DNA of 64,000 bases from a virus. Below, in pieces: positions 42,814 through 59,993 of the stretch. Position numbers and translations under genes: made by a program. The notes below the pieces were generated by a model, which ran no database searches, had not been told where the DNA came from, and saw only the letters and a program-made list of their open reading frames with translations. How positions within the stretch are numbered: the first letter of the stretch is position 1; each line of letters starts with the position of its first letter. The stretch spans positions 57,229 through 121,228 of IMG/VR virus record IMGVR_UViG_3300021185_001461; one strand, 5' to 3'.

Positions 42814-42842
42814 TTGACAATCAAGACTAAATAGTGTATTAT
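42814..42842 (+). promoter_or_regulatory. superimposed sigma-70-type and late promoters of the enzyme island
   Basis: A TTGACA box, a 17-base spacer and a TATTAT box form a sigma-70-type promoter. Inside the spacer the plus strand reads ACTAAATAGT, a late-type element. Both point at the gene at 42869, which starts a long run of overlapping genes. Confidence 0.7.
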
Positions 42843-42868
42843 ATACATACATAATGAAGGAGTATTCT

Positions 42869-43216
42869 ATGGACGAAAGACTCGAGAAGGCATTAGACTT
42901 TAGTAACTATGCTTTAACGATTAACAATCAAAAGAGAAATATCAGGAACAGAGTAGCACAACTACAAATTGTACATCACTTAGGTGGTGTGTTTATTGCT
43001 AATCACGAAACAATTGCTTTTGTAAAAACATTAATAGATCTAAAACACAAAAGTTCTGTTGTTATTGATAGTAAAAATAATCCTATTACAGTAAAAAGTT
43101 TAAAAGAATTACTAGAAAAATTAGTAGATGCATATACAAGTGCTACTACAGAATTTGATGTTGAAAATGAAAAGATAAAAAAATCACGCAACATTAAAAA
43201 AATAATGGATTGGTAA
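42869..43216 (+). CDS. hypothetical protein leading the enzyme island, 115 aa
   Basis: The ATG at 42869 has AAGGAG eight bases upstream; an in-frame ATG at 42854 overlaps that site and is rejected. The 115-residue protein is helical with many Lys, Asn and Ile and no membrane segment. It is first in the island and its stop overlaps the start of the first glycosyltransferase-like gene (TAATG). No family is recognised. It could be a structural adaptor or regulator, but nothing in the sequence shows this. Confidence 0.75.
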   Translation: MDERLEKALDFSNYALTINNQKRNIRNRVAQLQIVHHLGGVFIANHETIAFVKTLIDLKHKSSVVIDSKNNPITVKSLKELLEKLVDAYTSATTEFDVENEKIKKSRNIKKIMDW

Positions 43217-44109
43217 TGCTAGAAGTTCAAGCACAAAAAGGCGTATGCTTCTTTGCTTACAATAATGATCAATTAGATTATGTAAAGATGGCAATTGTTG
43301 CCGCTAGATATGTTAAGAAGAATTTAAAACTTCCAGTGTGTTTAATCACTGACGAAGGAAGTGAAAGCTGGCTTGAAGAAAGTCATCCTAAAAAACTTAT
43401 TAAAGAAACATTTGATTATATTATAATTACTAACGACGAAATGAAAGACAACCGCAGGCGACACTATGATAGTCCATGGACACAGTTTGCTGCACAGTTT
43501 AGTAACAGTAACAAACATAAAATATTTCAATACAGCCCATTTGAGCAAACACTATTACTAGATATAGATTATATAGTAAAAACAGATACGTTATTAAAAT
43601 ACTTTGATAATGACTATCCTGTGTGTATGTTTGATAGAGCTACGACACTTAGAAACGAATTGCCTGCTTTACAAGAAAGATTTTTATATGATGCAGGAAT
43701 TAAAATGTGGTGGAGTACAGTTATATACTTTGACCGCAGTGACTTTAGTAAAATGTTTTTTGATGGATGGGCTCATGTAGCTGAGAACTATGATTTCTAT
43801 CAGTACTTGTATAACTTTCCAAGTAAATTATTCCGTACAGATTATTGTGTAAGTATTGCAATACATATACTAGCTGGTATGCAAGATGAACAATCATTAA
43901 TAGGAAACTTTGATAACACTGCATTAGTAAACATGAGTCAGAAGGATGATATCATTGAAGCTAAAAATGATAACGAATGGATAATGCTTTCACATGATCA
44001 GAAAGAGGTATGGAAAAATATTTTAGTTAACACAAGCAATCAAGACATACATGTTATGAATAAGCGAGCATTTGATAGAGTTATACCAGATTTAATGGAG
44101 ACGCTATGA
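43216..44109 (+). CDS. glycosyltransferase-like protein 1 (GT8-like)
   Basis: This 297-residue protein has an N-terminal nucleotide-sugar-binding type fold: C-F-F-A-Y-N-N-D onward, then V-C-L-I-T-D-E. The key D-I-D motif in T-L-L-L-D-I-D-Y-I-V near residue 115 would bind the metal and sugar nucleotide, as in GT-A enzymes of family 8. W-W-S-T-V-I-Y-F-D near 170 fits the acceptor side. The ATG at 43216 overlaps the previous stop. The neighbouring gene is a diverged relative. Confidence 0.7.
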   Translation: MLEVQAQKGVCFFAYNNDQLDYVKMAIVAARYVKKNLKLPVCLITDEGSESWLEESHPKKLIKETFDYIIITNDEMKDNRRRHYDSPWTQFAAQFSNSNKHKIFQYSPFEQTLLLDIDYIVKTDTLLKYFDNDYPVCMFDRATTLRNELPALQERFLYDAGIKMWWSTVIYFDRSDFSKMFFDGWAHVAENYDFYQYLYNFPSKLFRTDYCVSIAIHILAGMQDEQSLIGNFDNTALVNMSQKDDIIEAKNDNEWIMLSHDQKEVWKNILVNTSNQDIHVMNKRAFDRVIPDLMETL

Positions 44110-44957
44110 ATAAAGAAAACCGAGGATATGTAATATTAGCAATGCAAGACTTTGAGTATGAGCAAGCAACTGCACTTGCATATAGTATTAAACTACATAA
44201 CAAAGACGCCAGTGTTACACTAGTGACTAATTATGTTGATCGTATACCAAAACATTTTGAAGAAGTATTTGACTACTTAGTAGACATGCCTTATGGATCA
44301 AGCGACATTACTAGAGTAAATGATTGGCAACTGTATTGGTCAACACCATACGTTCATAATATTGTTATTGACTGTGCAAGCCTTGTAAAAGAAAACCACG
44401 ACAGTATATGGGAATACCTAGAAGATCATTATGACATTTACTTTTTTAATCAGTGCGATAACTTTAGAGGAATGCCTTTAAAAAATAAAACATTTGAATT
44501 ACTAAAAGAAGAATACAAACTTAATCCAGTATACTCTCATATGTTTTATTTTAAGCACGATGCAGAAACATCACTTGCGTTTTTTAAACTAGCAGATGTG
44601 TTTATGCGAAACTGGAGAGATGTGTTTAATCATTATTTTTCTAAAGCACATACTCCATCTTCATATGATAGTAATATTATGTACAGTTTACTAAACACAA
44701 TAGTATTATTTGAATATCCTTCATTGCATGAAAATATTATAAACACAATTAATATGCCTGGTACATTAGCATCTGGTAATATTGGACAATGGAACAAATG
44801 GACAGATAGATTAAATGTATGGAATAGTGAACATGCAAAAGTTAAAATTCAAAACTATGCAGTTGCTACTAATCTATATTATGGAGAACAAGAGTTTTTA
44901 ACAGAAGATATTTTTAATGGACACCGAGATACTTACAGAGCAACAGCAAAGCGTTGA
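44106..44957 (+). CDS. glycosyltransferase-like protein 2, degenerate metal motif
   Basis: This 283-residue protein resembles its upstream neighbour in length and layout (A-L-A-Y-S-I-K-L-H-N-K-D-A-S-V-T-L-V-T-N, then V-I-D-C-A-S-L-V). The expected D-x-D is replaced by D-C-A, so it may have lost transferase activity or use another metal site. It overlaps the previous gene by four bases (ATGA). Possible roles are an inactive partner or a transferase with an altered site. Confidence 0.6.
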   Translation: MNKENRGYVILAMQDFEYEQATALAYSIKLHNKDASVTLVTNYVDRIPKHFEEVFDYLVDMPYGSSDITRVNDWQLYWSTPYVHNIVIDCASLVKENHDSIWEYLEDHYDIYFFNQCDNFRGMPLKNKTFELLKEEYKLNPVYSHMFYFKHDAETSLAFFKLADVFMRNWRDVFNHYFSKAHTPSSYDSNIMYSLLNTIVLFEYPSLHENIINTINMPGTLASGNIGQWNKWTDRLNVWNSEHAKVKIQNYAVATNLYYGEQEFLTEDIFNGHRDTYRATAKR

Positions 44958-45894
44958 TCGTACTTACTTTATAGTATTCGATACTAATGGTAAGATACGT
45001 AAGATCAATAGCTCACCCGGCGAGCTAAAAGATGAAAGTTTAACTCAGATTGAAACTACTAATCCTATTTGTAAACAACTTATAAAAGGTAATGCTAGTT
45101 TAAAGAAGTATGGAGTTATATGGGATATTGTTAACGAAAAGTGGGAAATTGATAGAACTGATACTAGGTTAACATTAAAAACAATAGCCACTAGTAAAAT
45201 TGTACAATTTGATCATAACATAGATAAAAAGTCTGCAGAAATATTTGTTTCTATATACACAAGTGATAATACAGTAGTAGTGTATGCAAACAAAAATAGA
45301 ATTAAAGGCATGAAAAATTTAACTGATATACAAGAAATATCAACAAATAAAACAGATATACTAGATATATTTCTTACAAAGAAAAACGATCCAGACTATT
45401 TACTTGCAATACTTAAATTAGATCCACTTACATTGTTTGTAAAAGGATCACAAGTAATAAATCTTGACACTAATATTATTGAGCATGTTGATTGGAATAA
45501 CATGAGCATGTATACAAAACCAATATTTAATAATTATGGTTGTACTTTGATTGGGCAAAAATATAAAGAGGCAGGAGACGTAGCAAATACAGTTCTCCAA
45601 TCACAAAATGCCCAAGATAAAGACATCATAAATATTAACGTAGTAGATAATGTACTATACGCAAAGAGCCATTTGGCCAGTGATAGAGATCATTATTTTG
45701 AAGATTATCGTTATCTAAAAGTTCTTGTTTGCGACAACAGTCCAGATAAGTTAGCAGGAGCATTTGAATTACCAGTTGATGTTCTACTAAGTAATGAAAA
45801 CTATAATACCAAAATAGACTTTAAATGGCCAAAGAAACCGTTGTTATTATATAAGAATAATTACATAACAATTCGTATAAAGGAGATTACATGA
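44917..45894 (+). CDS. hypothetical protein of the enzyme island, 325 aa
   Basis: This 325-residue protein overlaps the previous gene by 41 bases. It has an N-terminal Y-F-I-V-F-D-T-N-G-K-I-R-K segment and mixed alpha/beta content. The C-terminal half includes L-L-Y-K-N-N-Y-I-T-I-R-I, suggesting a beta-sandwich end. No catalytic motif is recognised. It may be a binding or scaffold protein for the pathway; there is no evidence beyond context. Confidence 0.7.
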   Translation: MDTEILTEQQQSVDRTYFIVFDTNGKIRKINSSPGELKDESLTQIETTNPICKQLIKGNASLKKYGVIWDIVNEKWEIDRTDTRLTLKTIATSKIVQFDHNIDKKSAEIFVSIYTSDNTVVVYANKNRIKGMKNLTDIQEISTNKTDILDIFLTKKNDPDYLLAILKLDPLTLFVKGSQVINLDTNIIEHVDWNNMSMYTKPIFNNYGCTLIGQKYKEAGDVANTVLQSQNAQDKDIININVVDNVLYAKSHLASDRDHYFEDYRYLKVLVCDNSPDKLAGAFELPVDVLLSNENYNTKIDFKWPKKPLLLYKNNYITIRIKEIT

Positions 45895-46652
45895 ATACAT
45901 TAGATCCAGTTGTTTGGGAGAACCGAAGAACAACAAGACTGTTTTCAGAAGAAAACAAAACAATACCCGATGAAGATTTAAAATACCTAGCAACAGTAAT
46001 TAACAATATTCCTAGTCAATGTAGTATTAAATCTCATTTTTGGCTATACTTAGGGCAAAGCGAAGAAGATATGAATATTCGCAAATGGATGGCTGACAAT
46101 ATTTATTGGACGCCAGATGATACAGATGAATCTGCAAATCCAAAAAGAGAAACTATGCTTGGTATTATACAAGCACCTGCTATTCTAACGTGTGTTAGAA
46201 CTAGTAGTCCGTGGGCTAATCCAGAAACAGGAAAGACTAAAGACGATCACGAACAGTTAGCAGACAGAAGTGAAGGATTTTTTGCAGGAGCAATTTTAGC
46301 CACATTATTAAATATGGGTTATAAAGTTGCAACATTTGGATGTACTGCCGGAGCATCTGCTCTTGGAAGACAAAACAAACTGGCTATCTATGATGAATAT
46401 ACTAGAATAATAAAAGAAAAGCACGGCAACGAATTACAAGAAATGATTGATAAGTTTCCAGGACCGTCAGGTAATTGGAAAGATATTTCATTCTTTCCTG
46501 GCGTTACGCAATGCTTTGGAGCAGAATCAACAGACGAAACAGTAGCATGGAATGGAAAATATGATACATGGACTGAACCAAATGGCAAAGAATATAATTT
46601 TGTAAACGGAATAAAAACTAGAACACCAGTAGATACCTGTGTTGGATTTTAA
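45891..46652 (+). CDS. nitroreductase-family flavoprotein
   Basis: This 253-residue protein has the nitroreductase start R-R-T-T-R-L-F near residue 12 (the FMN-binding R-R-S/T-x-R-x-F pattern). A middle block G-F-F-A-G-A-I-L-A-T-L-L-N-M-G-Y-K-V-A-T-F-G-C near residues 127-149 fits the family's dimer and flavin interface. Such enzymes use NAD(P)H and FMN to reduce nitro groups, quinones, or thiazoline and enamide intermediates in natural-product pathways. It is coupled to the previous gene by ATGA. Its place among radical SAM and transferase genes suggests a tailoring reduction. Confidence 0.82.
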   Translation: MNTLDPVVWENRRTTRLFSEENKTIPDEDLKYLATVINNIPSQCSIKSHFWLYLGQSEEDMNIRKWMADNIYWTPDDTDESANPKRETMLGIIQAPAILTCVRTSSPWANPETGKTKDDHEQLADRSEGFFAGAILATLLNMGYKVATFGCTAGASALGRQNKLAIYDEYTRIIKEKHGNELQEMIDKFPGPSGNWKDISFFPGVTQCFGAESTDETVAWNGKYDTWTEPNGKEYNFVNGIKTRTPVDTCVGF

Positions 46653-46666
46653 GGAGAGGAGATATT

Positions 46667-47653
46667 ATGAGCAGTATGCAAAGCATAAACGAATTTGATA
46701 TAGTGTTTATCAGCTATGATGAACCTAATGCAGATGAAAACTATAATGATTTAATTAATAAGGCACCCTGGGCCAAGCGAAGCCACGGAGTGTTTGGAAG
46801 TGATGCGGCGCACAAAGCTGCTGCAGACTTGGCAGAAACAGATAGGTTTATTACTATTGATGCAGACAACATAGTCAGAGAAGAGTTCTTTGGTGTTGAA
46901 GTAGACATGAGTAAAATTAGAAGTACAGATGTTATCAGTTGGGCAGGAAAGAATACAGTAAACGGATTAGTGTACGGCAACGGTGGAATCAAATGTTGGC
47001 CCAAACCAGTAGTGTACGGAATGGAAACACATGAGAATGCACCAGCAGGAGATAAGCGAGCTCAAGTTGACTTTTGTTGGAACATTAACTATGTGCAAAT
47101 GAATAACATATATTGTGATGTAATGAACAATGCTAGTCCACTACAGGCTTGGCGTGCAGGTTTTCGTGAAGGAGTTAAGATGGGATTGGTTGGCGGTGAC
47201 GTTATTGATCCATTAAAACTAAAAGAAAAAGTACATGACAAGAATTATAAAAGACTACTTACATGGATGAGTGTAGGTGATGATACTGAAAATGGACTAT
47301 GGGCAATTTATGGATCAAGACTTGGATGTCATATGACAAACATTACTAGAGGAAATTGGGATTGGAAAAATGTTAGAGACTTTGATTATCTAAGTAATAT
47401 GTTCCTCAAAGAAGTATTACCAAACTTTGAACAGTCTTCTGATCAACTATGTCCACGTACTGGAATGAAATGGAACTATAATACGCTACAAGAAGAAAGC
47501 GACAGACTTGGTTATGAATTACGCAAAGAACTAGATTTAGAAATTGCCGACTTAGGCAAAGAAGGTTCACGCTTCTTTAAAGAAGTTTATATTAACCCAA
47601 GCCGTATGGGAGCACAAATCAGGGAAGACCAGGTAGAAGATACACTAGAATGA
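46667..47653 (+). CDS. glycosyltransferase-like protein 3
   Basis: This 328-residue protein begins I-V-F-I-S-Y-D-E-P-N-A and has R-F-I-T-I-D-A-D-N-I-V near residue 65, a D-x-D-type sugar-nucleotide site. The W-A-K-R near residue 35 and a later Y-G-N-G-G-I-K-C-W-P-K-P segment are typical of a phage family found with other such genes. AAGGAGAGG precedes the ATG. It overlaps the radical SAM gene by four bases. Confidence 0.65.
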   Translation: MSSMQSINEFDIVFISYDEPNADENYNDLINKAPWAKRSHGVFGSDAAHKAAADLAETDRFITIDADNIVREEFFGVEVDMSKIRSTDVISWAGKNTVNGLVYGNGGIKCWPKPVVYGMETHENAPAGDKRAQVDFCWNINYVQMNNIYCDVMNNASPLQAWRAGFREGVKMGLVGGDVIDPLKLKEKVHDKNYKRLLTWMSVGDDTENGLWAIYGSRLGCHMTNITRGNWDWKNVRDFDYLSNMFLKEVLPNFEQSSDQLCPRTGMKWNYNTLQEESDRLGYELRKELDLEIADLGKEGSRFFKEVYINPSRMGAQIREDQVEDTLE

Positions 47654-49224
47654 AAAAAGTAGATGACATGAATTGGGACCTTAATCACGAAGGCAACATA
47701 AAAACCAATCATGCAAATTTTAAAAATGTTAAAGAACTACTTGATAGTAAAGGACCTGGGTTCTGTTTGGCTAAATGGAATCAAGTTACAATGCATTTGG
47801 GTACGGGTGTTACACACAGTTGTCATCACCCAGCCGTACATAAAATTCCACTAGAAGAACTTAAAGACAATCCAAGTGCATTACATAATACAAAATTTAA
47901 AAAAGAACAACGTAAGACAATGCTTAACGGCGGCAGGCCAAAGGAATGTGATTATTGTTGGCGAATAGAAGATAATAACACAGGCGAGTTTAGTGATAGA
48001 GTATTTAAAAGTTTAGAACCTTGGGCATTAAAACATAATGATATAATCAAAGATATGGACGGCGATGAAAATGTATTGCCTACATATATTGAGGTTAGTT
48101 TCAGTAACGTATGTAATATGAAGTGTACTTACTGTGGGCCAGAGGCTAGTAGCAAGTGGTACGAAGATATAAAACAAAATGGTCCAATAAAATTATTGGA
48201 AGGTACAGATGATGAGTATTGGGCACAAGGTTGGCAACAAGACTTAGAAGTATTTAAGAATAGAGAATACAATCCATATGTAGAAGCATTTTGGGAATGG
48301 TGGCCCGAGCTTAGTAAAAACTTAAAAGTGTTCCGTATAACAGGTGGCGAGCCTTTAATGAGCAAAGACACATTTAAAGTATTAGAAGACCTAATTGAAA
48401 ACCCAAGACCTGATCTTGAGATTAGTATTAATACTAATTTAAGTGTACCAGATAAACTTTGGAATAAGTTTATTGGTTTAGCAATACAACTTAAAGATAG
48501 TAACAACATTAAAAATCTAACAGTATATACAAGTGTTGAAGGTTGGGGTGAAAGAGCCGAGTATGCTCGTACAGGATTAAACTTTGAATTATTTTTACAG
48601 AGGTATGAACAATTAATTAGCATGGGTAACATACGTGCAGTATTAATGTCCACTTATAATATGTTTAGTATAACAAGTTTTACTCGTTTACTAGAATGGC
48701 AATATGATTTAAGATTAAAATATAATAAAAATCCAGTAGTGCTTAATTATGCAGAGACAGGATTTAGAAGTCCTGGCCATAGATTACCTGAGACAGATAT
48801 AAATTGGAAACAAGAACTTGCTACAGTATGTATTGATGTTCCGTACCTAAGACACCCAACCTTTTTAGATTGTCGTAATAGTACACACCAATTAGCAGAA
48901 GAATATATGTTAGCATCTTTAGACTATATGGCTAGTAGAACTACATATCCAGGTTGGACAGTACACAAAGGCTTTGAGCAAAACGAGATAGATAAGTTTA
49001 AACGTATTGTATTTCATAGACTATACTTTAACAAAAAGAACAGTGATGGGACACCCGACTATCATAACAGACGAGATTTAGATTTGAATAGATCTCAATT
49101 TTATGAGTTTATACAAAAAATAGATCAAAGAAACAACACAGACTTTCTATCTACGTTTCCCGAAATGCAAGAATTCTATAACGAATGCGGCGAAGCAAGA
49201 GATAGGATTCTAAATGGAAGATAG
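47650..49224 (+). CDS. radical SAM protein 1 (twitch-type) with N-terminal Cys cluster
   Basis: This 524-residue protein has the radical SAM cluster motif C155-N-M-K-C159-T-Y-C162, binding a 4Fe-4S cluster and S-adenosylmethionine, and the G-G-E-P motif near residue 228. Before it lie four Cys at 39, 58, 100 and 103 (CHHP, CDYC), in the arrangement expected for an auxiliary cluster of the SPASM/twitch kind, which is usually C-terminal. Such enzymes modify peptides, sugars or nucleosides. The gene overlaps its tandem paralogue. Confidence 0.88.
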   Translation: MKKVDDMNWDLNHEGNIKTNHANFKNVKELLDSKGPGFCLAKWNQVTMHLGTGVTHSCHHPAVHKIPLEELKDNPSALHNTKFKKEQRKTMLNGGRPKECDYCWRIEDNNTGEFSDRVFKSLEPWALKHNDIIKDMDGDENVLPTYIEVSFSNVCNMKCTYCGPEASSKWYEDIKQNGPIKLLEGTDDEYWAQGWQQDLEVFKNREYNPYVEAFWEWWPELSKNLKVFRITGGEPLMSKDTFKVLEDLIENPRPDLEISINTNLSVPDKLWNKFIGLAIQLKDSNNIKNLTVYTSVEGWGERAEYARTGLNFELFLQRYEQLISMGNIRAVLMSTYNMFSITSFTRLLEWQYDLRLKYNKNPVVLNYAETGFRSPGHRLPETDINWKQELATVCIDVPYLRHPTFLDCRNSTHQLAEEYMLASLDYMASRTTYPGWTVHKGFEQNEIDKFKRIVFHRLYFNKKNSDGTPDYHNRRDLDLNRSQFYEFIQKIDQRNNTDFLSTFPEMQEFYNECGEARDRILNGR

Positions 49225-50533
49225 AGAATTACTTGAGAAACTTAACAAAGTTGGCAAAGGTTTTTGTGCAGCTAAATGGTATAACAGTACTATATGGTTA
49301 AGTAATGGCAGAACTAGTAGCTGTCATCATCCTCCTGCACATAGCATTAATCCAGATGACGTTATAAAAAATCCTAGTGCATTACACAATACAGAATATA
49401 AAAAGTCGGTACGTAAAGAAATGCTTAATGGTGAACGTCCTGCTGAGTGTGGTTATTGTTGGAAAGTAGAAGATGCGGCTCCTAATGCAGTTAGTGATAG
49501 AGTATACAAGAGTAACATATACACACCAAGTGATATATCAAAGTTAGCCAAACAATCACCTGACATTGATGTTAACCCTAAAACACTAGAGATAAGTTTT
49601 GATAATGTATGTGACTACCAGTGTACATATTGTAATGCAGAGTTTAGTACAACATGGAATGCGGATATAAATCGCAACGGTGGATATGATTTAAGTACTA
49701 ACGGTGGTGCTACATATAATCAACCTTATGAGTTTGATACTAACATAGTTAAAAATCCCACAGTGTACACTGATGCTTTTCAGCGTTGGTATGATAGTGG
49801 ACTTAAAGATGACTTAACTGAACTACGCATTACTGGAGGCGAACCAACTATGAGTCCGAGCTTCTGGCGTTTTATTAATAACATAGACAATGCAAACTAT
49901 CAATTTAGTGTTAACACTAACTTGGGTATGCGAACCGATGTTATGGATAAACTAATAGCGGCCAGTCATAAGTTTAAAAGATTTGATTTATATACTAGTG
50001 TAGAAAGTTCTCCTAGTATAGCTGAATTTGTACGTACTGGATTTAAATGGGATACATGGACTAATAACTTAGATCATTTTATAAGAGAAGGCAAGTACAC
50101 AAGCATTAACATTATGATGACTATTAGTTGTCTTAGTCTGCCTGGAGTAGTTGGATTCTTAGAAGAGTATAAAAGTTTAAAAAAATATTATCCTAATGTG
50201 CATATGACTATCAGTGCAAACATATTACGCTTTCCTAGTTTTCAATCCATAACTGTACTAAGTAACGAATTAAAAAAACATTATCATAGTGAATTAACCG
50301 AGTGGCTAAATACAAACGATAATGTTCTTGCAGACTTTGAAATACAACATTTAAATCGTTTATTGGATTATCTACACAATGTTGATATTAGTTACGAAGA
50401 TACAGACACATTAAAAAGTAAACACAGTGACTTACATAAATTTGTCACACAGTATGCAGATCGCCGGGGTGTAGACATCCATAGTATATACCATAAGGAA
50501 TTTGTCAATTGGTTCAACAAATTAAAAAAATAA
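49214..50533 (+). CDS. radical SAM protein 2, paralogue of protein 1
   Basis: This 439-residue protein matches its neighbour along most of its length: K-G-F-C-A-A-K-W, S-C-H-H-P near residue 36, G-Y-C-W near 80, the radical SAM motif C133-D-Y-Q-C137-T-Y-C140, then L-R-I-T-G-G-E-P. The N-terminal Cys positions (18, 37, 79, 82) repeat the spacing of protein 1. The two probably arose by duplication and may act on successive or related substrates. It overlaps protein 1 by 11 bases and ends inside the SGNH gene. Confidence 0.88.
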   Translation: MEDRELLEKLNKVGKGFCAAKWYNSTIWLSNGRTSSCHHPPAHSINPDDVIKNPSALHNTEYKKSVRKEMLNGERPAECGYCWKVEDAAPNAVSDRVYKSNIYTPSDISKLAKQSPDIDVNPKTLEISFDNVCDYQCTYCNAEFSTTWNADINRNGGYDLSTNGGATYNQPYEFDTNIVKNPTVYTDAFQRWYDSGLKDDLTELRITGGEPTMSPSFWRFINNIDNANYQFSVNTNLGMRTDVMDKLIAASHKFKRFDLYTSVESSPSIAEFVRTGFKWDTWTNNLDHFIREGKYTSINIMMTISCLSLPGVVGFLEEYKSLKKYYPNVHMTISANILRFPSFQSITVLSNELKKHYHSELTEWLNTNDNVLADFEIQHLNRLLDYLHNVDISYEDTDTLKSKHSDLHKFVTQYADRRGVDIHSIYHKEFVNWFNKLKK

Positions 50534-53135: not shown

Positions 53136-53731
53136 ACGCACATCAACACATAGCAGATCGTATACAAAAAACTGAACTAGATACTCGTGGTGGTTATCCT
53201 TGGATGACTGTAACAGATTTTTTACCTGCAGACTTGTATGAGAATATAAGAATTAATCAAGACTGTCAGCAACTATTAAATGCACACGATGATCCAAATA
53301 TAGTAAAAGCATTGTACAATAAGTTCAGTGACTATCCTATACGTCAAGATAATATACAAAGTATATATGCATTTTGGCAAAGCACAGGTGCTGGTTATAG
53401 TTTAAAGCCACATGAAGATAGTTGGCCGCGTGTGTTTACTATAGTGTATTACTTTCCAGATGATGATACTTATCCTGAGGCAGGCACTGCCATATATGAA
53501 GTGGACGAAGATAAACGTACATACAACACAGTAGCTACATCACCATACTTGCCAAACACTGCAACTATAATTGCTCCTGATACTGGACGCACTTGGCACG
53601 GAGTAGATCTTATACAACGTCAAGTAAGTAGACAAAGTGCAGTGTTAGTATTCAGTGCAGAAGAATGGACACCAGCTCAATTACATTATGCTGATTGGAA
53701 ATCTGGAAGGACAGTTAACTATGCAAGGTAA
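53132..53731 (+). CDS. 2-oxoglutarate/Fe(II) oxygenase
   Basis: This 199-residue protein has the double-stranded beta-helix iron site: His94-x-Asp96 in L-K-P-H-E-D-S-W-P, the distal His156 in T-W-H-G-V, and Arg167 for 2-oxoglutarate. R-V-F-T-I-V-Y-Y-F-P before the acidic loop is typical of phage oxygenases. Such enzymes hydroxylate peptides, sugars or small molecules. The start is GTG, overlapping the previous stop. It is the clearest oxidative tailoring enzyme of the island. Confidence 0.85.
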   Translation: MNAHQHIADRIQKTELDTRGGYPWMTVTDFLPADLYENIRINQDCQQLLNAHDDPNIVKALYNKFSDYPIRQDNIQSIYAFWQSTGAGYSLKPHEDSWPRVFTIVYYFPDDDTYPEAGTAIYEVDEDKRTYNTVATSPYLPNTATIIAPDTGRTWHGVDLIQRQVSRQSAVLVFSAEEWTPAQLHYADWKSGRTVNYAR

Positions 53732-54215
53732 CTATCAAAAATATAATATACTAGGCGAGAGCTATGACTTGTTAACCATTGGCGATTGGAAACGTGTAGT
53801 AGTTGTAAGTGATTTAAATAATTATCATCTTAACGCTGACTATGTAAAAAATGTTAAACTGTCTGATGAGGTTATCAATAGTTTAATGACAAACAACCAC
53901 GAGTATAATATATGGTGTACTGTTGACTATTGGCAACCACCTTTTAATCCTTGGCAACCTTGGCCAAATAATTTATATATTCATAATAGCATAGAAAGAT
54001 TTGATAGTACAACATTATCTAAAGATATTCCTAACAGTAATTTAATTAGCACACACTTAGATAGAGATCCTATACGTGCTGACAATCAAGGCGATGGTAG
54101 TATTGGATTTGGCTTTGCTGGCGGAGATATCTTTTACGGGTATGGCAATTTAGATAAGTCTGGGTTTGTTCAAGACTTTAGTGGAGCCGGAAGAGGAAGT
54201 GTGTATGTTAGATAA
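53721..54215 (+). CDS. hypothetical protein, 164 aa, tryptophan/glycine-rich
   Basis: The ATG at 53721 is chosen because GGAAGG precedes it and it overlaps the previous gene by only 11 bases; an upstream frame extension has no site. The 164-residue product has a W-Q-P-P-F-N-P-W-Q-P-W-P motif and a Gly-rich tail. No domain is recognised. Its aromatic, proline-rich segment may bind carbohydrate, which is speculative. Confidence 0.6.
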   Translation: MQGNYQKYNILGESYDLLTIGDWKRVVVVSDLNNYHLNADYVKNVKLSDEVINSLMTNNHEYNIWCTVDYWQPPFNPWQPWPNNLYIHNSIERFDSTTLSKDIPNSNLISTHLDRDPIRADNQGDGSIGFGFAGGDIFYGYGNLDKSGFVQDFSGAGRGSVYVR

Positions 54216-54894
54216 ACTATTAGTAATAAGCAATGCACGTATGGGTAGTACATATGTATACAATACATTTCGTGAGTTTGATTCACGTAGCAAAGACACA
54301 ACAGAAAATCATTTATTAACTAATGAACCATTTGACAAAAACGACTTTGATACTGTATACAAATATACAAAGGAACAACCTAACATTGTAAGTAAAATAC
54401 ATGCACGTCATATTCAATCGCTAGGAAAAGACTTTAAAAAATACTTTGATTTATTTGATAAAACTTTATTATTGTTACGCAAAGACTTGTTTGCATCAGC
54501 TACTAGTCTTTCAATTAGCGTAGCAAAAGAACAATGGGGCGTACATTATCCCATCAACGATAATGTTATTAAATTAGATTTAGATCAATTACAAAAACAT
54601 ATTAGACAACAATGGCAAGACATTAGATATTTAAGAAGCATAGCTCGTGATTATAATATTAATCACAGCATATGGTTAGAAGATTATCCTACTGATATTA
54701 GTTTGTGGCATATATTTAATAACAAAGAAACTATGCCTAATACTGGGCTAAGTTTCCCTACATATAAAAGTCCACAGAAGTCAAGCACAATAAGTAATTA
54801 CGATTATTGTTACGAATTATACCTTAGTGTAATTCAAGACTTAGCACCAATACATGGATTAACTATAGAAAATAATTTAATTAAGGAACTATAA
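54205..54894 (+). CDS. sulfotransferase-like protein 1
   Basis: The 229-residue protein starts at 54205 (AAGAGGA upstream). It has an N-terminal R-M-G-S-T-Y at residues 12-17, matching the phosphosulfate-binding loop P-R-S-G-T-T-W of sulfotransferases, and L-L-L-L-R-K-D-L-F-A-S-A-T-S-L-S near residues 83-98, matching the 3'-phosphate-binding R...S region. A sulfotransferase would move sulfate from PAPS to a sugar or peptide. It is paired with a diverged copy immediately downstream. No PAPS-making gene is seen, so the donor would come from the host. Confidence 0.65.
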   Translation: MLDKLLVISNARMGSTYVYNTFREFDSRSKDTTENHLLTNEPFDKNDFDTVYKYTKEQPNIVSKIHARHIQSLGKDFKKYFDLFDKTLLLLRKDLFASATSLSISVAKEQWGVHYPINDNVIKLDLDQLQKHIRQQWQDIRYLRSIARDYNINHSIWLEDYPTDISLWHIFNNKETMPNTGLSFPTYKSPQKSSTISNYDYCYELYLSVIQDLAPIHGLTIENNLIKEL

Positions 54895-55565
54895 TGAGAA
54901 TTAGATTAATAACAATGCCACGTACAAAAGCTACATACTTAATGAAAGCATTAATATCAGCTAACAATCCATCGCAATTAGATATTAACAGTGACTTATA
55001 CAATGAACCATATAACAACGATAGGCCCAATCCAATCGCAGCCACTGAATGGATGAAGTCTGATACTAACGCAGTGATTAAACATCACATACGACATTTG
55101 GTTGCCAACGATGTATATAACAGTAAACAGGCTTTCCAACAAGAATGCGAATTAGATTGGCTTACAGTTGTTTTACTAAGACGTGATTTATTTGCTGCGG
55201 CTACTAGTTATGCACGTAGTAGAATAAGTAACGAGTGGCATAGTTATACTAACGAGAGTGTTTATATACCTCCTGAGTTTTTTAATAAATGTTTAATAGC
55301 TTTATGGGGTAGTGTAACACATATAAAGAACAATGTTAATAACTTAACGTATGATAAAATAATATACAGTGATGACTTTACTGGTAATCCATCAAACGAT
55401 ATAAAAGAAATAATACCCAACTATTCTAAAGAAATATATACTGACAGTAAACCAAGACCAGAAAATACTATAACCAACATCAACGAGTTACGAGAGTATT
55501 CTCAACAAATAACATTACCGGACAATGGTGTTATGATAGATAAAGATTTAATTATTACAATATAA
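54894..55565 (+). CDS. sulfotransferase-like protein 2
   Basis: This 223-residue paralogue has M-P-R-T-K-A-T-Y-L near residues 8-16 and V-V-L-L-R-R-D-L-F-A-A-A-T-S-Y-A-R-S near 88-105, aligning with the same two sites in protein 1. It starts one base inside the previous stop (TAATG). Its 3' end overlaps the convergent gene at 55555 by 11 bases. Two copies may act on different positions or form a heterodimer. Confidence 0.62.
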   Translation: MRIRLITMPRTKATYLMKALISANNPSQLDINSDLYNEPYNNDRPNPIAATEWMKSDTNAVIKHHIRHLVANDVYNSKQAFQQECELDWLTVVLLRRDLFAAATSYARSRISNEWHSYTNESVYIPPEFFNKCLIALWGSVTHIKNNVNNLTYDKIIYSDDFTGNPSNDIKEIIPNYSKEIYTDSKPRPENTITNINELREYSQQITLPDNGVMIDKDLIITI

Positions 55566-56460
55566 TCTTTTTTTCGTTAACAAATGTATTTTGAATTTTA
55601 AGATAATCATTATAGTTCAATGCATTTAAAGTTAAATCAGCATACGGTCGAACTATAGTAGATCCAATTTTAAGATGAGGCAACATAGTTGTACCGTTGC
55701 GTCTTAACACTGCTCCCAAATTCATATGTATGTGTCTTAGTGATCCGCCTGATAATACTTTATCTAATCTATTTTTATTAGGGTGTACACTGTGAATCAT
55801 TTTTAAATATTCAGCAGCCATCAAGTCCATAGCAATACTGCTACCCCATAACATATAATCATGAACAGAATCTGAAAAGGGACTATGAGTCAATCCCCAT
55901 GCCTGTGTATTAGTAACCATCCAGTTGTTACAAGAATTTGCTATAGGATCTCTGTCTTGTGGTTGTCCATATGTTAGTTTGTTTACACGATCGACTATGC
56001 GATTTACCCATGTTCCATTGTCTCCTCGATAATGTGACCTAGGGTTTGGTATTACATCATAACGAGTTAACACTACAACATCATAATTAAAATTATTCTG
56101 AGCTTCGTGATTTTGTTTAAGCATAATAGCGTCTGCCATACTTTTCTCAGTCCTGCCTCCCCAGCTATGTAACTTGACAGTATCACTGTCCAATATTTCC
56201 ACTGCACAAGGATTTAGCATGCTTAACTTATTCAGTAAAGTGTTACGTTCTTGGTTAACTAAGTCTACTTTCTCATTAGTAGTTCGGTATTCTTCAAATG
56301 TTCTAGAGCTACAAAAGAAATCTACTTGTATTGATTTACTAGTAAAATGATCTTTTAGATACGGCAACACATAGTCGCCTGTTCTATATAATCCATATAA
56401 GCATACGGCTACACGCTTTACACCTTTTGGATATAGTAGAACGTTGTCAGGATAGTCCAT
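55555..56460 (-). CDS. glycosyltransferase/WavE-like protein, 301 aa
   Basis: This is one of only two minus-strand genes inside the island. The ATG at 56460 overlaps the stop of the upstream gene (TAATG) and is preferred to an ATG 24 bases earlier. The N-terminal R-V-A-V-C-L-Y-G-L-Y-R-T-G and the later V-V-V-L-T-R-Y-D-V-I-P resemble lipopolysaccharide-synthesis proteins of the WavE kind. Function in sugar transfer is therefore possible, with low certainty. It converges with the second sulfotransferase-like gene. Confidence 0.55.
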   Translation of the reverse strand: MDYPDNVLLYPKGVKRVAVCLYGLYRTGDYVLPYLKDHFTSKSIQVDFFCSSRTFEEYRTTNEKVDLVNQERNTLLNKLSMLNPCAVEILDSDTVKLHSWGGRTEKSMADAIMLKQNHEAQNNFNYDVVVLTRYDVIPNPRSHYRGDNGTWVNRIVDRVNKLTYGQPQDRDPIANSCNNWMVTNTQAWGLTHSPFSDSVHDYMLWGSSIAMDLMAAEYLKMIHSVHPNKNRLDKVLSGGSLRHIHMNLGAVLRRNGTTMLPHLKIGSTIVRPYADLTLNALNYNDYLKIQNTFVNEKKIIL

Positions 56461-56936
56461 TACGTTAACTCCAAACTTATACAACGTATATTTAAATTAA
56501 ACAATAGCACATGGAATATATTAGTTAATGAGTTTGCTAGATCATCTTTGGATAATGTATGATAAAAATGCATACTATCGTGTAATGATTTCCATTGCAA
56601 ATTAACTTTATTAAACACATTCCAATTACAGAAGTAATGATCGTAGTGCATATTTTTATTAGGAAAGTATATTACATCATAAGCAGTATCATATATAGTG
56701 CATTGTTCTATATCAAATATTGTATTACCCATAACAAATACAACACTATCTTCGTCACTACATCCACGCATGCCATGATCATTGTACATATTCATGCTGT
56801 GTTGCCAGCGTGAACGGAATACAGAAATCATTTCTCTGTAGTCGGCGTTTGGGTTATGTGGATAGTTGCTTCTATAGAGATTTAAATTATCACTATGAGT
56901 TAGTGTTTTGTTATCAAGTCGGCTTATAAATTGCAT
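56460..56936 (-). CDS. hypothetical protein, 158 aa, leaderless start
   Basis: This 158-residue protein is rich in His, Tyr, Asn and Cys and has no recognised domain. The ATG at 56936 is the predicted transcription start of the late promoter at 56942-56949, so no ribosome site exists. It forms a two-gene minus-strand unit with the WavE-like gene and diverges from the HAD gene. It may be a small partner of the downstream enzyme. Confidence 0.65.
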   Translation of the reverse strand: MQFISRLDNKTLTHSDNLNLYRSNYPHNPNADYREMISVFRSRWQHSMNMYNDHGMRGCSDEDSVVFVMGNTIFDIEQCTIYDTAYDVIYFPNKNMHYDHYFCNWNVFNKVNLQWKSLHDSMHFYHTLSKDDLANSLTNIFHVLLFNLNIRCISLELT

Positions 56937-56941
56937 GCTAC

Positions 56942-56957
56942 TATTTATATATAAATA
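56942..56957. promoter_or_regulatory. divergent back-to-back late promoters in a 16-bp palindrome
   Basis: TATTTATATATAAATA is a perfect 16-bp palindrome. It contains TATAAATA on the plus strand (56950-56957) and on the minus strand (56949-56942). The predicted +1 positions are 56963 and 56936, the first bases of the two flanking ATGs. Confidence 0.8.
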
Positions 56958-56962
56958 TAAGT

Positions 56963-57553
56963 ATGTTAATTATTTTTGATTTCGATGGAACACTTGCGAA
57001 CTGTAAAGAGTTACATCAAATTGCATTTCGTAATGCAGTACAAGAACTTTGTCCTAATGCAGATTTTAAAAACGAAGACGTAGAAGGTAGACCAACTAGA
57101 GAGAAGATACGTATACTACACACAATGGGTTATGAGTTTAACGGAGATAAGTTAAACGATATTAAACAAGCATACACGCAAAAGCATTTAGAAGAATATA
57201 TAAAGTATAATAAAGATTTATTACACACAATGCTAAAGTTAAAAGAAAGATATAAACTATGTGTAGCCAGTAATGCCACAGAATTATTTGTACTTAGAAG
57301 TTTAAATATTATGCAAATGTATAAAGAAACAGGAAAGCAAGTGTTTGCTAAAATTAATACTGCTACTGACTTTCCTGCTAAACCAGATACTACTACGTTT
57401 ATAGATTGTATGAGATGGACAAACAGTACACCAGAAGATACTATTATATTTGAAGATAGTGAAGTTGGAATACAATGTGCTTTAAGCACAGGTGCTAGAG
57501 TTATCAGAGTAACAGATGTGAATCACACTATAGAGGAAATGAAAAAACTATGA
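56963..57553 (+). CDS. HAD-family phosphatase (beta-phosphoglucomutase-like)
   Basis: This 196-residue protein has the four HAD motifs: D-F-D-G-T (Asp6 nucleophile, Asp8), C-V-A-S-N near 98, K-P-D near 141 and F-E-D-S near 159, plus a helical cap domain. Such enzymes remove phosphate from sugars or isomerise sugar phosphates. It is coupled by ATGA to the nucleotidyltransferase gene. The pair fits a sugar-activation step. The start is the predicted +1 of a late promoter, so the message appears leaderless. Confidence 0.88.
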   Translation: MLIIFDFDGTLANCKELHQIAFRNAVQELCPNADFKNEDVEGRPTREKIRILHTMGYEFNGDKLNDIKQAYTQKHLEEYIKYNKDLLHTMLKLKERYKLCVASNATELFVLRSLNIMQMYKETGKQVFAKINTATDFPAKPDTTTFIDCMRWTNSTPEDTIIFEDSEVGIQCALSTGARVIRVTDVNHTIEEMKKL

Positions 57554-58266
57554 AATTAATTATGCCAATGGCAGGACAAGGAAGTCGCTTTGACGAAGTG
57601 GGTTATGATTTACCCAAGCCAATGATACCAGTAGGAGATGTTCCTATGTTTGTACACGTAGAACGTTGTATAGGTTTGGAGTTTGATGAACGTATATTTA
57701 TTGTACGCAAAGAACATGATCTTAGATCAAGAGTTCTCGAATGGTATCCTAACGCACACATAATTGAGTTAGACTACTTGACAGAAGGTACTGCATGTAC
57801 TATACTAACAGCAAGAGAACACTATGAAGATGGTAGCAGTATATTTGTTAGCAACTGTGATCAACACATTGAATGGGATGTAGAGCATGCAGAAAGTATT
57901 ATGAACAATCCCTATAACAGTGGAATGATTCCAAACTTTTACTGCGACGATGGATCAAAGAAATGGAGTTATGCAATGGTAGATGATAGACAAAACATCA
58001 AACGTGTAGCTGAAAAAGATCCCATAAGCAATTGGGCAACTGTAGGTTACTACTGGTGGAGAGACGGAACTCAGTTTATTGAAAGTGCTGATCGTATGAT
58101 ACAAGCCAATGACAGAGTTAATAACGAATTTTATACATGTCCAACTTATAACTACACAGTGCAACTAGAAGGAATTGGTAACATCAAACACATGGAAGTA
58201 GACGCTATGCAAGGTCTAGGAACTCCAGAAGATTTAAAAGAATATGAACAACAGTACTCATCTTGA
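57550..58266 (+). CDS. sugar-phosphate nucleotidyltransferase
   Basis: This 238-residue protein begins with the classic nucleotidyltransferase loop M-A-G-Q-G-S-R-F (residues 7-14) and L-P-K-P-M-I-P near residue 21. A Y-L-T-E-G-T-A-C-T-I block near 76-85 is typical of the family, as is F-V-S-N-C-D-Q-H near 98, where an Asp would bind the metal. It makes nucleotide-diphosphate sugars. It follows the HAD gene by ATGA and overlaps the third radical SAM gene. It probably supplies an activated sugar for the island's transferases. Confidence 0.88.
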   Translation: MKLIMPMAGQGSRFDEVGYDLPKPMIPVGDVPMFVHVERCIGLEFDERIFIVRKEHDLRSRVLEWYPNAHIIELDYLTEGTACTILTAREHYEDGSSIFVSNCDQHIEWDVEHAESIMNNPYNSGMIPNFYCDDGSKKWSYAMVDDRQNIKRVAEKDPISNWATVGYYWWRDGTQFIESADRMIQANDRVNNEFYTCPTYNYTVQLEGIGNIKHMEVDAMQGLGTPEDLKEYEQQYSS

Positions 58267-59479
58267 GAAATTAAAACTACCTAGTTCGTTTTGTTTTGCT
58301 CCATACACTAATTTAGATTTGGATCAAGATGGAACATGGCTTCCGTGTTTTAGAAGTGAAGAAGCACAAGGAAGCTGGAAAGAATATGATATTACAGAGA
58401 CTTTTAATTCAAGCAACATTCAAAAAGTTAGAACAGATTTGTGGAAGGGCAAGTGGCCAAAGAACTGTGAACAATGCCAAGCACGTGAACAAGAAGGTAT
58501 TAAAAGTACAAGACAAGAATACAACGAACATCTATTAGAACTTGCAGACAACTTAGACTTTGTAAAAGATATTAAAAAAGCACCACAGTATAGTGGAATA
58601 GAAAACATTCATACATTGGAAATACGCCCACATAACTTGTGTAACCTAGCATGTGGACATTGTGATCCACACAGTTCAAGTAGATGGGTTAAAATTAAAT
58701 CAAATGAAACAAAGGATCAAGACTTTACAAAACATTTAATTGACAATCCCGAGTACTTAAAAAAGTTTTATACAAAAGCAGGTAACCTAAAGACTGTACA
58801 TTTTACAGGAGGCGAGCCTTTGATTTATGCATCCTCTCACAAAGAATGGCTAAACGGAATACAAAACAAACACAACATAGAACTTAGATATCATTCTAAT
58901 CTTAATCATAATCAACTAAGCACATATCAACACAAATGGGATAAGTTTAAACACGTAAAGTTTTTTGCAAGCATTGATACAAGTCAACGTTACTATGAGT
59001 TTTTTAGATTTGGTAGCAAATGGGATAGAGTAGATTATAATATTGATTATTTGTTAAAACAAAAGCACGAAGTAGTAGGTACTATTACAGTAAACTTCTT
59101 TACAATGCTTGATCTTGTGGGGCTTGTAAAGTACTTGGTAGCAAAGAATTTACAGATTCATGTAGCATTTGTAGACGCACCGGGCTCTTTGAATATAGCA
59201 TACATGAGCAATGAACAAAAGAATAAAGCAATAGAACAAATTGCACAAGCAAAATTAGAAATAAACTACAAAGAAGAATGGAAAGAACAACGAGGACATA
59301 TTGCATTAGATAAGATTACTGAATTTATCAAAGGTACATGGGAAGTAGATAAAGAAAAAACCAGAGGCGACTTAACATGGTGCAGTGATAAACAACATCC
59401 AAAGCAACTTGCTAAGTTAGATTACTTGGATAAGACTTATCAGAAACATGGATTCAAGTCTAGTTGGACTGAATTATAA
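58244..59479 (+). CDS. radical SAM protein 3 (twitch-type) with N-terminal Cys cluster
   Basis: This 411-residue protein has the cluster motif C133-N-L-A-C137-G-H-C140, H-F-T-G-G-E-P near residue 185, and four N-terminal Cys at 17, 35, 75 and 78 with spacing like the other two proteins. It begins 23 bases inside the previous gene. The shared layout suggests a common ancestor, though this copy is the most diverged. It may act on a nucleotide sugar, given its operon partner. Confidence 0.85.
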   Translation: MNNSTHLEKLKLPSSFCFAPYTNLDLDQDGTWLPCFRSEEAQGSWKEYDITETFNSSNIQKVRTDLWKGKWPKNCEQCQAREQEGIKSTRQEYNEHLLELADNLDFVKDIKKAPQYSGIENIHTLEIRPHNLCNLACGHCDPHSSSRWVKIKSNETKDQDFTKHLIDNPEYLKKFYTKAGNLKTVHFTGGEPLIYASSHKEWLNGIQNKHNIELRYHSNLNHNQLSTYQHKWDKFKHVKFFASIDTSQRYYEFFRFGSKWDRVDYNIDYLLKQKHEVVGTITVNFFTMLDLVGLVKYLVAKNLQIHVAFVDAPGSLNIAYMSNEQKNKAIEQIAQAKLEINYKEEWKEQRGHIALDKITEFIKGTWEVDKEKTRGDLTWCSDKQHPKQLAKLDYLDKTYQKHGFKSSWTEL

Positions 59480-59485
59480 CAGTTA

Positions 59486-59494
59486 GATAAATAT
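59486..59494 (+). promoter_or_regulatory. T4-type late promoter (GATAAATAT)
   Basis: The plus strand reads GATAAATAT. The predicted +1 near 59499 leaves a 15-base leader with AGGA before the ATG at 59514. Confidence 0.75.
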
Positions 59495-59513
59495 TTTAAA
59501 CAGGACTTTTACA

Positions 59514-59993
59514 ATGACACAATTTATAGCACACAGAGGAAACCTAACAGGACCCGAACCCACATTCGAGAACCGTATAGAATACCTATTGCATGCTTAT
59601 GATGTGTGTGGTGCAGTGGAAGTAGATATACAAACCCATCGTGGACAATTGTATTTCGGACATGATGATCCACAACAACCGGTATCGCTTGAATTGATAA
59701 TGCAAGACAATTGGTTTTGTCATGCAAAGGATCTAGAATCGTTAAGTAAACTATTAGAATTGGGTGCTCATACATTTTGGCATCAACAAGATACAGTAAC
59801 AATTACCAGTAGAGGATACATATGGTGTTACCCAGATGTGTATCTCATTGACAAACGTGCTATATGGTTAGACTTCGAAGACAAGTTTACTGACTTAGAA
59901 CTAGTAGGTGGTTGGGGTTTATGCAGTGATAGATACCCAATGATAAGACCTGTACGCAGTCCTAAGCCTCCTATTAGTCCGTATACTAATTAA
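59514..59993 (+). CDS. short glycerophosphodiester phosphodiesterase-like protein
   Basis: This 159-residue protein has the GDPD start I-A-H-R-G-N at residues 5-10, E-V-D at 36-38 and F-G-H-D-D near 48-52, in the order of the metal-binding residues of GDPD enzymes. These hydrolyse glycerophosphodiesters. At 159 residues it is shorter than usual (about 240), so a C-terminal part of the barrel may be missing. It has its own late promoter and ends by overlapping the first small minus-strand gene by eight bases. Confidence 0.75.
   Translation: MTQFIAHRGNLTGPEPTFENRIEYLLHAYDVCGAVEVDIQTHRGQLYFGHDDPQQPVSLELIMQDNWFCHAKDLESLSKLLELGAHTFWHQQDTVTITSRGYIWCYPDVYLIDKRAIWLDFEDKFTDLELVGGWGLCSDRYPMIRPVRSPKPPISPYTN

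Follow-up and report, generated by a model that had tools for sequence, protein, structure and literature searches.

What does a dense island of enzyme genes behind the fibre-region genes of a T4-type phage build, and on which molecule? We addressed this question for the right-hand 64 kb of the 121,228-base IMG/VR virus record IMGVR_UViG_3300021185_001461, a stretch of 64,000 nucleotides that we refer to as the window. The island occupies 42854-59993 and comprises 20 open reading frames (ORFs), g01 to g20 (Table 1). A model-generated first-pass annotation had described a dense gene block directly behind the fibre-region genes, and with 99.6% coding sequence this description holds. It had also counted 18 genes in one run; we count 18 ORFs on the plus strand and two more, g15 and g16 (55555-56484 and 56460-56936), on the minus strand.

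The first-pass annotation had viewed the island as one undescribed biosynthetic system. We find that the island is not one operon and has three parts: a core that stays fixed, cargo that is exchanged and an end module. These parts can be told apart because their conservation histories and promoter-like signals differ. The differing histories and the two minus-strand genes led us to reject a single 18-gene pathway. The suggestion that the genes form a surface-glycan or glycan-modifying set rather than ordinary phage metabolism is supported, and we consider it likely that the island builds and tailors glycans in general. A narrower reading, to which we assign a probability of about 0.4, is that the genes encode a soluble glycan system acting in the host cytoplasm with a virion protein as acceptor.

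The conserved core

We compared about 280 loci overall. Scans of viral contigs detected at least 590 stretches with g06 relatives, at least 560 with g01 relatives, 273 with g07 relatives and 14 with g18 relatives, and from each scan we fetched no more than the 80 best loci, so that the sample is not random. Genes were called mechanically as longest ORFs, and errors are possible in start sites and in some of the cargo genes. The usable loci were 56 of 80 anchored on g06 and 53 of 80 anchored on g01 (26 were too short and one lacked a called g01). From a set of 113 loci, 89 were usable for the cargo after g06, 103 for the state of the DxD motif and 109 for repeats in C7, the last gene before the island.

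C7, two GT8 genes and g06 were all present in the 53 usable g01-anchored loci, and 51 of these also have a radical SAM gene. Among the 56 g06-anchored loci, an upstream C7 was found in 54 and g01 in 55; all 56 have one or more GT8 genes, and 46 have two. Between the second GT8 gene and g06 there is exactly one gene in 99 of 105 loci, and two in the other six. We also compared g06 with the baseplate wedge in 20 hand-chosen records (16 found through g07 and four through g18). A strong wedge match (E 4e-99 or better) and g06 coincided in 18 out of 18 records, counting the g06 matches of G007 and G018 that read through one stop codon, and the remaining two records have neither. Because the order recurs in the usable loci and g06 tracks the wedge match in the chosen records, we define C7-g01-GT8-GT8-X-g06, where X is the position of g04, as the core of this phage lineage. 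The co-conservation that the first-pass annotation had proposed as a check thus applies to the core, whose order was found in 53 out of 53 loci, and not to most of the cargo or to the 20-gene set as a whole. Among the first set of loci, a nearly full 20-gene set was found only in L004 and L084, which belong to one contig that is 99-100% identical to the window.

We searched C7, g01, g02, g06 and g07 against 50,697 phage records, from which those nearest to the phage's own genome may have been left out; C7, g01, g02 and g06 had no match at E 1e-5 and g07 had three weak matches. The mean column identity of g01 is 50% over 21 copies. In nine close relatives the median identity is 90% for g01, 88% for g06, 45% for C7 and 47% for g04.

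The joint profile of the g02 and g03 family matches glycogenin, a GT8 protein, at E 7.5e-7 over positions 6-107, and its match list contains no DNA glucosyltransferase. The DxD motif is present in the first GT8 protein in 103 out of 103 loci. In the second it is present in 66 and absent in 37, three of which have E-x-D instead. In the window, g02 has both the profile match and the motif, and g03 lacks the motif. The combination of an active enzyme and a degenerate partner would recall the protein-glycosylating pairs of bacterial adhesins.

We found no Pfam or PHROG match for g06. Its AlphaFold model has a predicted local distance difference test score (pLDDT) of 90, and the best VIA match is B4GALNT1 (Z 10.3, root-mean-square deviation 3.0, 142 residues aligned). 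Both Asp residues of the DxD motif are invariant in 26 aligned copies. When g06 was compared with viral models, two uncultured-phage proteins matched at about 1e-12 and the rest were weaker than 1e-3. The model shows a GT-A fold with confidence and aligns with GT-A glycosyltransferases, which makes g06 a candidate enzyme of this type. The fast-evolving g04 yielded a mostly beta AlphaFold model with a pLDDT of 73.6 and a predicted template modelling score (pTM) of 0.48, and it is homologous to the protein in the same slot of another clade (hhalign probability 96.8). We dropped an attempt to name its fold, as the best Foldseek match had an E of 5.5e-4 with a TM of 0.16.

Promoters and predicted transcription

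We scored sigma70-type promoters with a simple consensus count and extended the survey to 115 non-redundant loci. A score of at least 10 was found upstream of g01 in 54 of 87 loci (40 of the 67 outside the first set). Such scores were scarce elsewhere: upstream of C7 (2/84), the first GT8 gene (1/95), g06 (6/113) and the C1 radical SAM family (0/60). In the first 23 loci, 15 reach this score upstream of g01, compared with 0.63 expected from shuffled sequences, nine carry the late-type motif ATAAATA and two have neither. Across the 87 loci, ATAAATA precedes g01 in 28 and neither signal is present in 22; the motif precedes C7 in 12 of 84.

Within the window, only four of 59 called genes reach the sigma70 score of 10, namely the late-sigma-factor gene, g01 and two small genes at about 62.5 and 63.5 kb. 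The motif NATAAATA lies upstream of 11 of the 59 (a raw count), including the portal gene, the gene at 39941, g16, g17 and g20; it is not found upstream of the major head gene (2968-4131), and none of the 59 genes has both signals. Back-to-back copies of TATAAATA, which we take to be the T4-type late promoter motif, lie at 56942..56957. This motif is rarer than expected by chance in the window (3 versus 12.4), and all three occurrences are immediately upstream of called genes, as if kept for promoter use.

From the sigma70-type site upstream of g01 and its scarcity upstream of the neighbouring genes, we conclude that the core probably forms a transcription unit of its own, apart from the structural genes; its promoter is of early type, and some lineages also have a late-type site. 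By the same kind of motif evidence, g15-g20 would be expressed late. In two loci (L023 and L080) we noticed by eye an inverted repeat followed by a T run in the gap between C7 and g01, a terminator-like arrangement at the border between the structural genes and the core. A region of small minus-strand genes at 62260-63801 of the window has consensus TTGACA-17-TATAAT promoters and the look of an early-gene region.

Cargo genes and end module

We assessed the gene names given in the first-pass annotation. Its three radical SAM proteins are g07, g08 and g19; all contain CxxxCxxC motifs and exceed the cut-off of 170 bits of NCBIfam NF033640 ("twitch domain-containing radical SAM protein"). These three proteins (one with a SPASM domain), the methyltransferase, the HAD protein and the nucleotidyltransferase are above their Pfam cut-offs, and of the three or more glycosyltransferase-like proteins that had been listed, two GT8-like proteins and a third with a GT-A fold are present. 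Other names have weaker backing. The nitroreductase and 2-oxoglutarate (2OG) oxygenase names have Pfam similarity (E 0.0092 and E 0.0019), in both cases below the cut-off (for g05, 16.6 bits versus 23.5). For the sulfotransferase name, Sulfotransfer_3 is detected in three of eight members of the g13/g14 family with a best E of only 0.005, and an attempt at confirmation with a PDB profile returned only NodH at E 0.46. The SGNH and GDPD-like names are based on motifs (GDS; HRG, ExD and HD), and g20 belongs to a PHROG of unknown function. We also rejected g15 (family C9) as a glycosyltransferase, having found no PDB or Pfam support; DUF7796 matches four of 19 members of the family and not g15 itself.

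The cargo changes rapidly. A tree of 106 g06 sequences shows at least 32 changes of family at the first cargo position. Where g07 is matched in close relatives, its median identity is 45%. Nine of the ten close relatives extend only 3.3-9.3 kb past the start of g01, and g09, which lies 7.7 kb on, is missing from all seven loci long enough to include it. The genes g10-g12 and g17-g20 could be sought only in L016, the sole close relative long enough; g10-g12 are absent from it.

Some families recur among the exchanged genes. In the 89 loci with at least 5 kb after g06, 235 of 742 downstream genes fall into five clusters that we call radical SAM, every clustered member has CxxxCxxC, and 72 of the loci have at least one such gene. 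We annotated a random sample of 120 of the 668 eligible cargo proteins and found that 45 match Pfam Radical_SAM and 42 match NF033640 at E 1e-5, with three matches each to GMP/PMI and RfaE domain II. The sample also contains matches to ThyX, thymidylate synthase, dihydrofolate reductase (DHFR) and an exonuclease, some of which may lie outside the island, as may other genes near locus ends that were counted as cargo. Ten representatives of cargo families include, above the Pfam cut-off, an epimerase, a UDP-glucose dehydrogenase, a carbamoyltransferase, RmlC and an E1 dehydrogenase; the remainder are a DUF6071 protein (an SGNH-like family), a nucleotidyltransferase/kinase fusion just below the cut-off and three proteins without a family.

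The end module has its own history. L016 keeps g17, g18 and g20 at 82, 91 and 90% identity while the surrounding genes differ, and the HAD and nucleotidyltransferase genes are also adjacent in L086, L087 and L088; in line with the earlier proposal that such a pair can make an activated sugar, we regard it as a likely activated-sugar module. Matches to g18 occur in 19 phage records at 26-39% identity, 18 of which are Synechococcus phages.

Membrane proteins are scarce. Transmembrane (TM) segments were predicted from hydropathy only, with a stricter threshold for the larger count. From g01 to the locus end, two of 1031 proteins are polytopic (at least three TM-like segments), compared with eight of 178 in bacterial neighbourhoods. 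None of the 20 island proteins in the window has more than one TM-like segment, and g08 and g19 have one each. A separate precursor gene would not fit between the island genes, where only three gaps (14, 26 and 34 nucleotides) occur.

Bacterial relatives of g06

A genome scan for g06 detected 27 loci. Ten of them, in which C7-g01-GT8-g06 is present, are likely to be phage contigs that ended up in metagenome bins. In six chromosomal-looking loci of Bdellovibrionia type (L104, L109, L110, L111, L114 and L123, with L104 and L110 being nearly one place), g06 is accompanied by radical SAM families that the phages carry too (C14, C45 or C3); L109, L111 and L114 additionally have family C21 beside g06. 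A cassette of g06 and radical SAM families is thus common to marine phages and relatives of predatory bacteria. In Rhodobacteraceae (L112, L115-L118), g06 has no neighbour from the phage families. Naming the neighbours by reading, we found g06 behind GT2-like genes in L122 and fused to a glycosyltransferase-like domain in L119. A role of g06 in glycosylation fits these bacterial contexts.

C7 and the acceptor of the glycan

The cytoplasmic glycan system is favoured because polytopic proteins are few, the gaps are too small for a separate precursor gene and sugar-nucleotide and transferase families recur. In the mechanism that we propose, the core operon (g01, g02, g03, g04 and g06) would be transcribed from its own sigma70-type promoter. 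Its enzymes would initiate a glycan and lengthen it in the cytoplasm of the host, with a virion protein, for example C7, as the most likely acceptor. The sugars would be provided and modified by the cargo (radical SAM, sulfotransferase-like, methyltransferase, oxygenase-like and other proteins) together with the HAD-nucleotidyltransferase-GDPD-like module, and exchange of the cargo would change the decoration fast between relatives. Gene order, the conservation of genes and promoter, the turnover of cargo, the low number of membrane proteins and the DxD states are observed; the adhesin role of C7, the individual chemical steps, the acceptor, the timing and the benefit are our inferences.

We favour C7 or g04 as the acceptor because C7 is constantly adjacent to the core, evolves fast like g04 and carries repeats. 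Repeats of [A/G/S]Y with at least four units occur in C7 of 27 out of 109 loci and in none of 1585 other proteins. They reach 11 units in the listed examples, and the g06 tree implies at least 12 gains or losses. By its position, C7 would be a virion adhesin. It is doubtful that the mechanism takes the specific form in which a glycogenin-like GT8 protein and its often degenerate partner O-glycosylate tyrosines of C7, with the [G/A/S]Y repeats as one acceptor form, g06 extends the glycan and a rapidly exchanged set of twitch radical SAM proteins and other enzymes remodels it.

Several points weigh against a virion acceptor. In 82 of 109 loci C7 lacks the repeats, and they show no association with the DxD state of the second GT8 protein (the motif is kept in 20 of 27 loci with the repeat and 46 of 76 without; p 0.25), which led us to drop the idea that tyrosine repeats are tied to loss of this motif. 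C7 has no annotated relative: none was found in the 50,697 phage records and the best PDB match, at E 0.11, is not credible, so that we also dropped C7 as a named adhesin. The sigma70-type promoter suggests expression earlier than that of virion proteins. The GT8 enzymes and the heptose- or GMP/PMI-type cargo also suit lipopolysaccharide (LPS) pathways, and a radical SAM gene is found among the first three genes after g06 in only 31 of the 56 g06-anchored loci. Many protein names are based on sub-threshold scores. A virion protein is thus a candidate acceptor.

Alternative explanations

It is possible, at a strength close behind that of the virion-protein reading, that the enzymes instead remodel the host surface by altering O-chain or capsule precursors, hiding the phage receptor and blocking superinfection. 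The early-type sigma70 promoter that precedes g01 in 54 of 87 loci and the LPS-type sugar-nucleotide cargo are consistent with this, as are bacterial g06 relatives beside GT2-like genes and a putative UDP-galactopyranose mutase (L111 and L122; named by reading). The same function was proposed for GT8-rich islands of pelagimyophages in the part of PMC7029224 that describes them and for cyanophage clusters in the corresponding part of PMC7824862. Against host-surface remodelling, the families found, including 25 of the 33 families of the cargo sample, contain no flippase, polymerase, ligase or Gtr-like protein, and the near absence of polytopic proteins (2/1031 by hydropathy) led us to reject Gtr-type serotype conversion and a self-contained O-antigen pathway. 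Remodelling of the host surface also leaves the constant linkage of C7 and the beta-rich protein inside the operon unexplained, and the late-type ATAAATA upstream of g01 in nine of the 23 first-set loci does not favour it.

The cargo genes could also be stand-alone auxiliary genes that pile up at a permissive site behind the fibre-region genes and share no common pathway. The many changes of the first cargo family (at least 32) and the nucleotide-metabolism and exonuclease matches in the cargo sample, some possibly from outside the island, agree with such an accumulation. We consider it unlikely in view of the core that is fixed across loci, the concentration of 235 of 742 downstream genes in five radical SAM clusters (72 of 89 loci) and the recurrence of sugar-active families.

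The first-pass annotation had likened the gene set to a natural-product pathway as well; in such a pathway, radical SAM, nitroreductase-like, methyltransferase and oxygenase-like proteins would make a small molecule or a ribosomally synthesized and post-translationally modified peptide (RiPP). The radical SAM proteins are weakly similar, below cut-off, to peptide maturases, an SbmA/BacA-like transporter gene is present on the same contig and a cyanophage cluster with carbamoyl transferases and 2OG oxygenases was proposed, in the section of PMC7824862 on that cluster, to serve capsule decoration or secondary metabolism. Nevertheless, this is improbable. The three gaps are too small for a separate precursor gene, which led us to reject a RiPP cluster with a precursor between the island genes. 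No assembly-line or RiPP cyclase or peptidase family was detected (Pfam for 20 proteins; NCBIfam above cut-off for 10 of the 20), the transporter gene occurs in only three of 26 related records, mostly fragments, and the core is made of glycosyltransferases.

DNA hypermodification pathways can use 2OG-oxygenase and kinase activities, and g11 is 2OG-oxygenase-like and g10 in part kinase-like. Phage glycosyltransferases often target DNA, according to the passage of PMC12619734 on these enzymes, but action on hypermodified bases of phage DNA is very improbable here, since g02 and g03 match glycogenin with no DNA glucosyltransferase in that match list, g10 and g11 lie outside the conserved core, and the coupling to C7 and the rapid exchange of cargo suit a surface trait better.

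The phage and the layout of the island

The phage, which is large, marine and uncultured, is probably a relative of jumbo myophages. A T4-type portal, a major head protein, a late sigma factor and a baseplate wedge were named by PHROG matches in the window, and we base the kinship on the wedge, which shares about 35% identity with its counterparts in Salicola phage SCTP-2 and in PA5oct-like jumbo phages of Pseudomonas, and on the protein at 40539-41480, which matches PA5oct-group proteins, one of them annotated as a virion structural protein. The 12 wedge matches listed among 65 all come from jumbo phages of Salicola and Pseudomonas, and the ten commonest names in the 65 include neither Pelagibacter nor Synechococcus, a comparison of a single gene. 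The genes before the island are identified as fibre genes by position and by the one structural annotation at 40539-41480.

Between the baseplate wedge and the fibre-region genes, an ORF of 3416 amino acids (29646-39896) may encode a VrlC-like giant protein. The record ends 4 kb beyond the island. About 15 kb to the left of the window, the same contig has an SbmA/BacA-like peptide transporter gene (L286:753-1763, minus strand) that covers the whole Pfam profile at E 2.8e-140. It was matched in four of the 50,697 phage records, and we dropped it as an island component because only three of the 26 related records have it.

Table 1. Features of the enzyme island and its upstream border, in window coordinates
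Feature	Position	Strand	Description
C7	41481..42806	+	Last gene before island; 441 amino acids, (YA)n repeat; fibre/adhesin-like by position only
Sigma70-type promoter TTGACA-17-TATTAT	42814..42842	+	Between C7 and g01
g01	42854..43216	+	120 amino acids, unknown function; first core-operon gene
g02	43210..44109	+	GT8-like glycosyltransferase; likely ATG start 43216; DxD intact
g03	44106..44957	+	Second GT8-like protein; D-C-A where DxD expected
g04 (X)	44917..45894	+	Fast-evolving beta-rich protein
g05	45891..46652	+	Nitroreductase-like; Pfam Nitroreductase E 0.0092, below cut-off; RRTTR motif
g06	46667..47653	+	Candidate GT-A-fold glycosyltransferase of the core; DxD at D65, D67
g07	47650..49224	+	N-terminal-twitch radical SAM; NF033640 311 bits; CxxxCxxC
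g08	49214..50533	+	N-terminal-twitch radical SAM; NF033640 278 bits
g09	50509..51414	+	SGNH-hydrolase-like, GDS motif only; related to cargo family C28, E 4.8e-8
g10	51411..53135	+	Methyltransferase (Methyltransf_25 E 3.6e-8) with kinase-like C-terminus (D-x4-N, IDWD motifs)
g11	53132..53731	+	2OG oxygenase-like; 2OG-FeII_Oxy_3 E 0.0019, below cut-off; HxD, H, R motif
g12	53655..54215	+	ORF; likely start 53721; no Pfam or PHROG family
g13	54166..54894	+	Sulfotransferase-like; likely start 54205 from family alignment
g14	54894..55565	+	Sulfotransferase-like; g13 family, profile E 3.4e-26
g15	55555..56484	-	Family C9; relatives at 22-29%; glycosyltransferase-like by reading only
g16	56460..56936	-	ORF; no Pfam or PHROG family
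Back-to-back TATAAATA motifs	56942..56957	.	Between divergent g16 and g17
g17	56963..57553	+	HAD phosphatase; HAD_2 E 1.8e-23
g18	57550..58266	+	Sugar nucleotidyltransferase; NTP_transferase E 1.4e-8; phrog_3980 E 1e-52
g19	58244..59479	+	N-terminal-twitch radical SAM; NF033640 251 bits; N-terminal SPASM match E 2e-6
g20	59514..59993	+	GDPD-like (HRG, ExD, HD motifs); phrog_34507 E 2.8e-15, of unknown function

Comparison with known systems

The island had been presented as a candidate undescribed system. However, hypervariable fibre-region islands with GT8 and radical SAM cassettes have been published for pelagimyophages as the "host recognition cluster" (HRC), which contains fibres, GT8-rich glycosyltransferases and radical SAM cassettes and is thought to modify the host O-chain (PMC7029224, section on the HRC). 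The HRC and the matching region of cyanomyophages resemble our locus in being hypervariable islands with fibre genes in the structural region of a T4-type phage, with several glycosyltransferases (GT8 being the most represented there) and radical SAM cassettes, as far as that section describes them. A similarly hypervariable island, combining glycosyltransferase genes with genes of the fibre region, lies in the T4-type structural region of the window, its fibres being assigned by position and one annotation. An HRC is expected between VrlC and the neck gene gp14, in phages near HTVC008M and the cyanomyophages. The island differs from the HRC as described in that section: the nearest of the listed wedge matches, at about 35%, belong to jumbo myophages (Salicola SCTP-2 and the PA5oct group), the glycosyltransferase core is fixed, has its own sigma70-type promoter and adjoins C7, and C7, g01, g02 and g06 are unmatched in the 50,697 phage records.

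In jumbo cyanophages, capsule-type clusters occur alongside another cluster, for which capsule decoration or production of a metabolite has been proposed (PMC7824862, passages on these clusters). Their LPS/capsule and sugar/amino-acid clusters share with the island paralogous glycosyltransferases, NDP-sugar enzymes, HAD proteins, 2OG oxygenases, methyltransferases and carbamoyl transferases, and they are polymorphic among relatives. In contrast, radical SAM is the largest cargo class here and the term occurs 0 times in the main text of that paper, whose account of the clusters describes no fixed core linked to fibre genes. A T4-like marine environmental genome with 12 radical SAM genes is similar in being rich in these genes, whereas they are treated as part of Fe-S metabolism, without a link to glycosyltransferases or fibres, in the passage on that genome (PMC5332604). 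Virion proteins of mycobacteriophages carry glycans (Freeman 2023, as cited in PMC12619734); the proteins concerned in that citation are capsid and tail tube subunits, unlike the candidate acceptors C7 or g04 here.

In the literature searched, with subscription papers outside its scope, we found no published description of the core. As far as this literature extends, the new details comprise a fixed core led by its own promoter, the coupling of this core to C7, the tyrosine repeats of C7, the GT8 pair and the dominance of radical SAM proteins.

Implications

The core marks a widespread phage lineage, with g06 relatives in at least 590 viral-contig stretches. A fixed core with exchangeable cargo means that five or six genes, rather than all 20, are enough to test the function of the phage glycan. 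The N-terminal-twitch radical SAM family makes up the largest cargo class (42 of 120 sampled proteins) and is now tied to a glycosyltransferase context; if the tyrosine-O-glycan form of the mechanism is true, this family would gain a glycan-tailoring function and the phages strain-specific surface glycans. Should a virion protein be the target, surface variation in these phages would include sugar chemistry as well as protein sequence.

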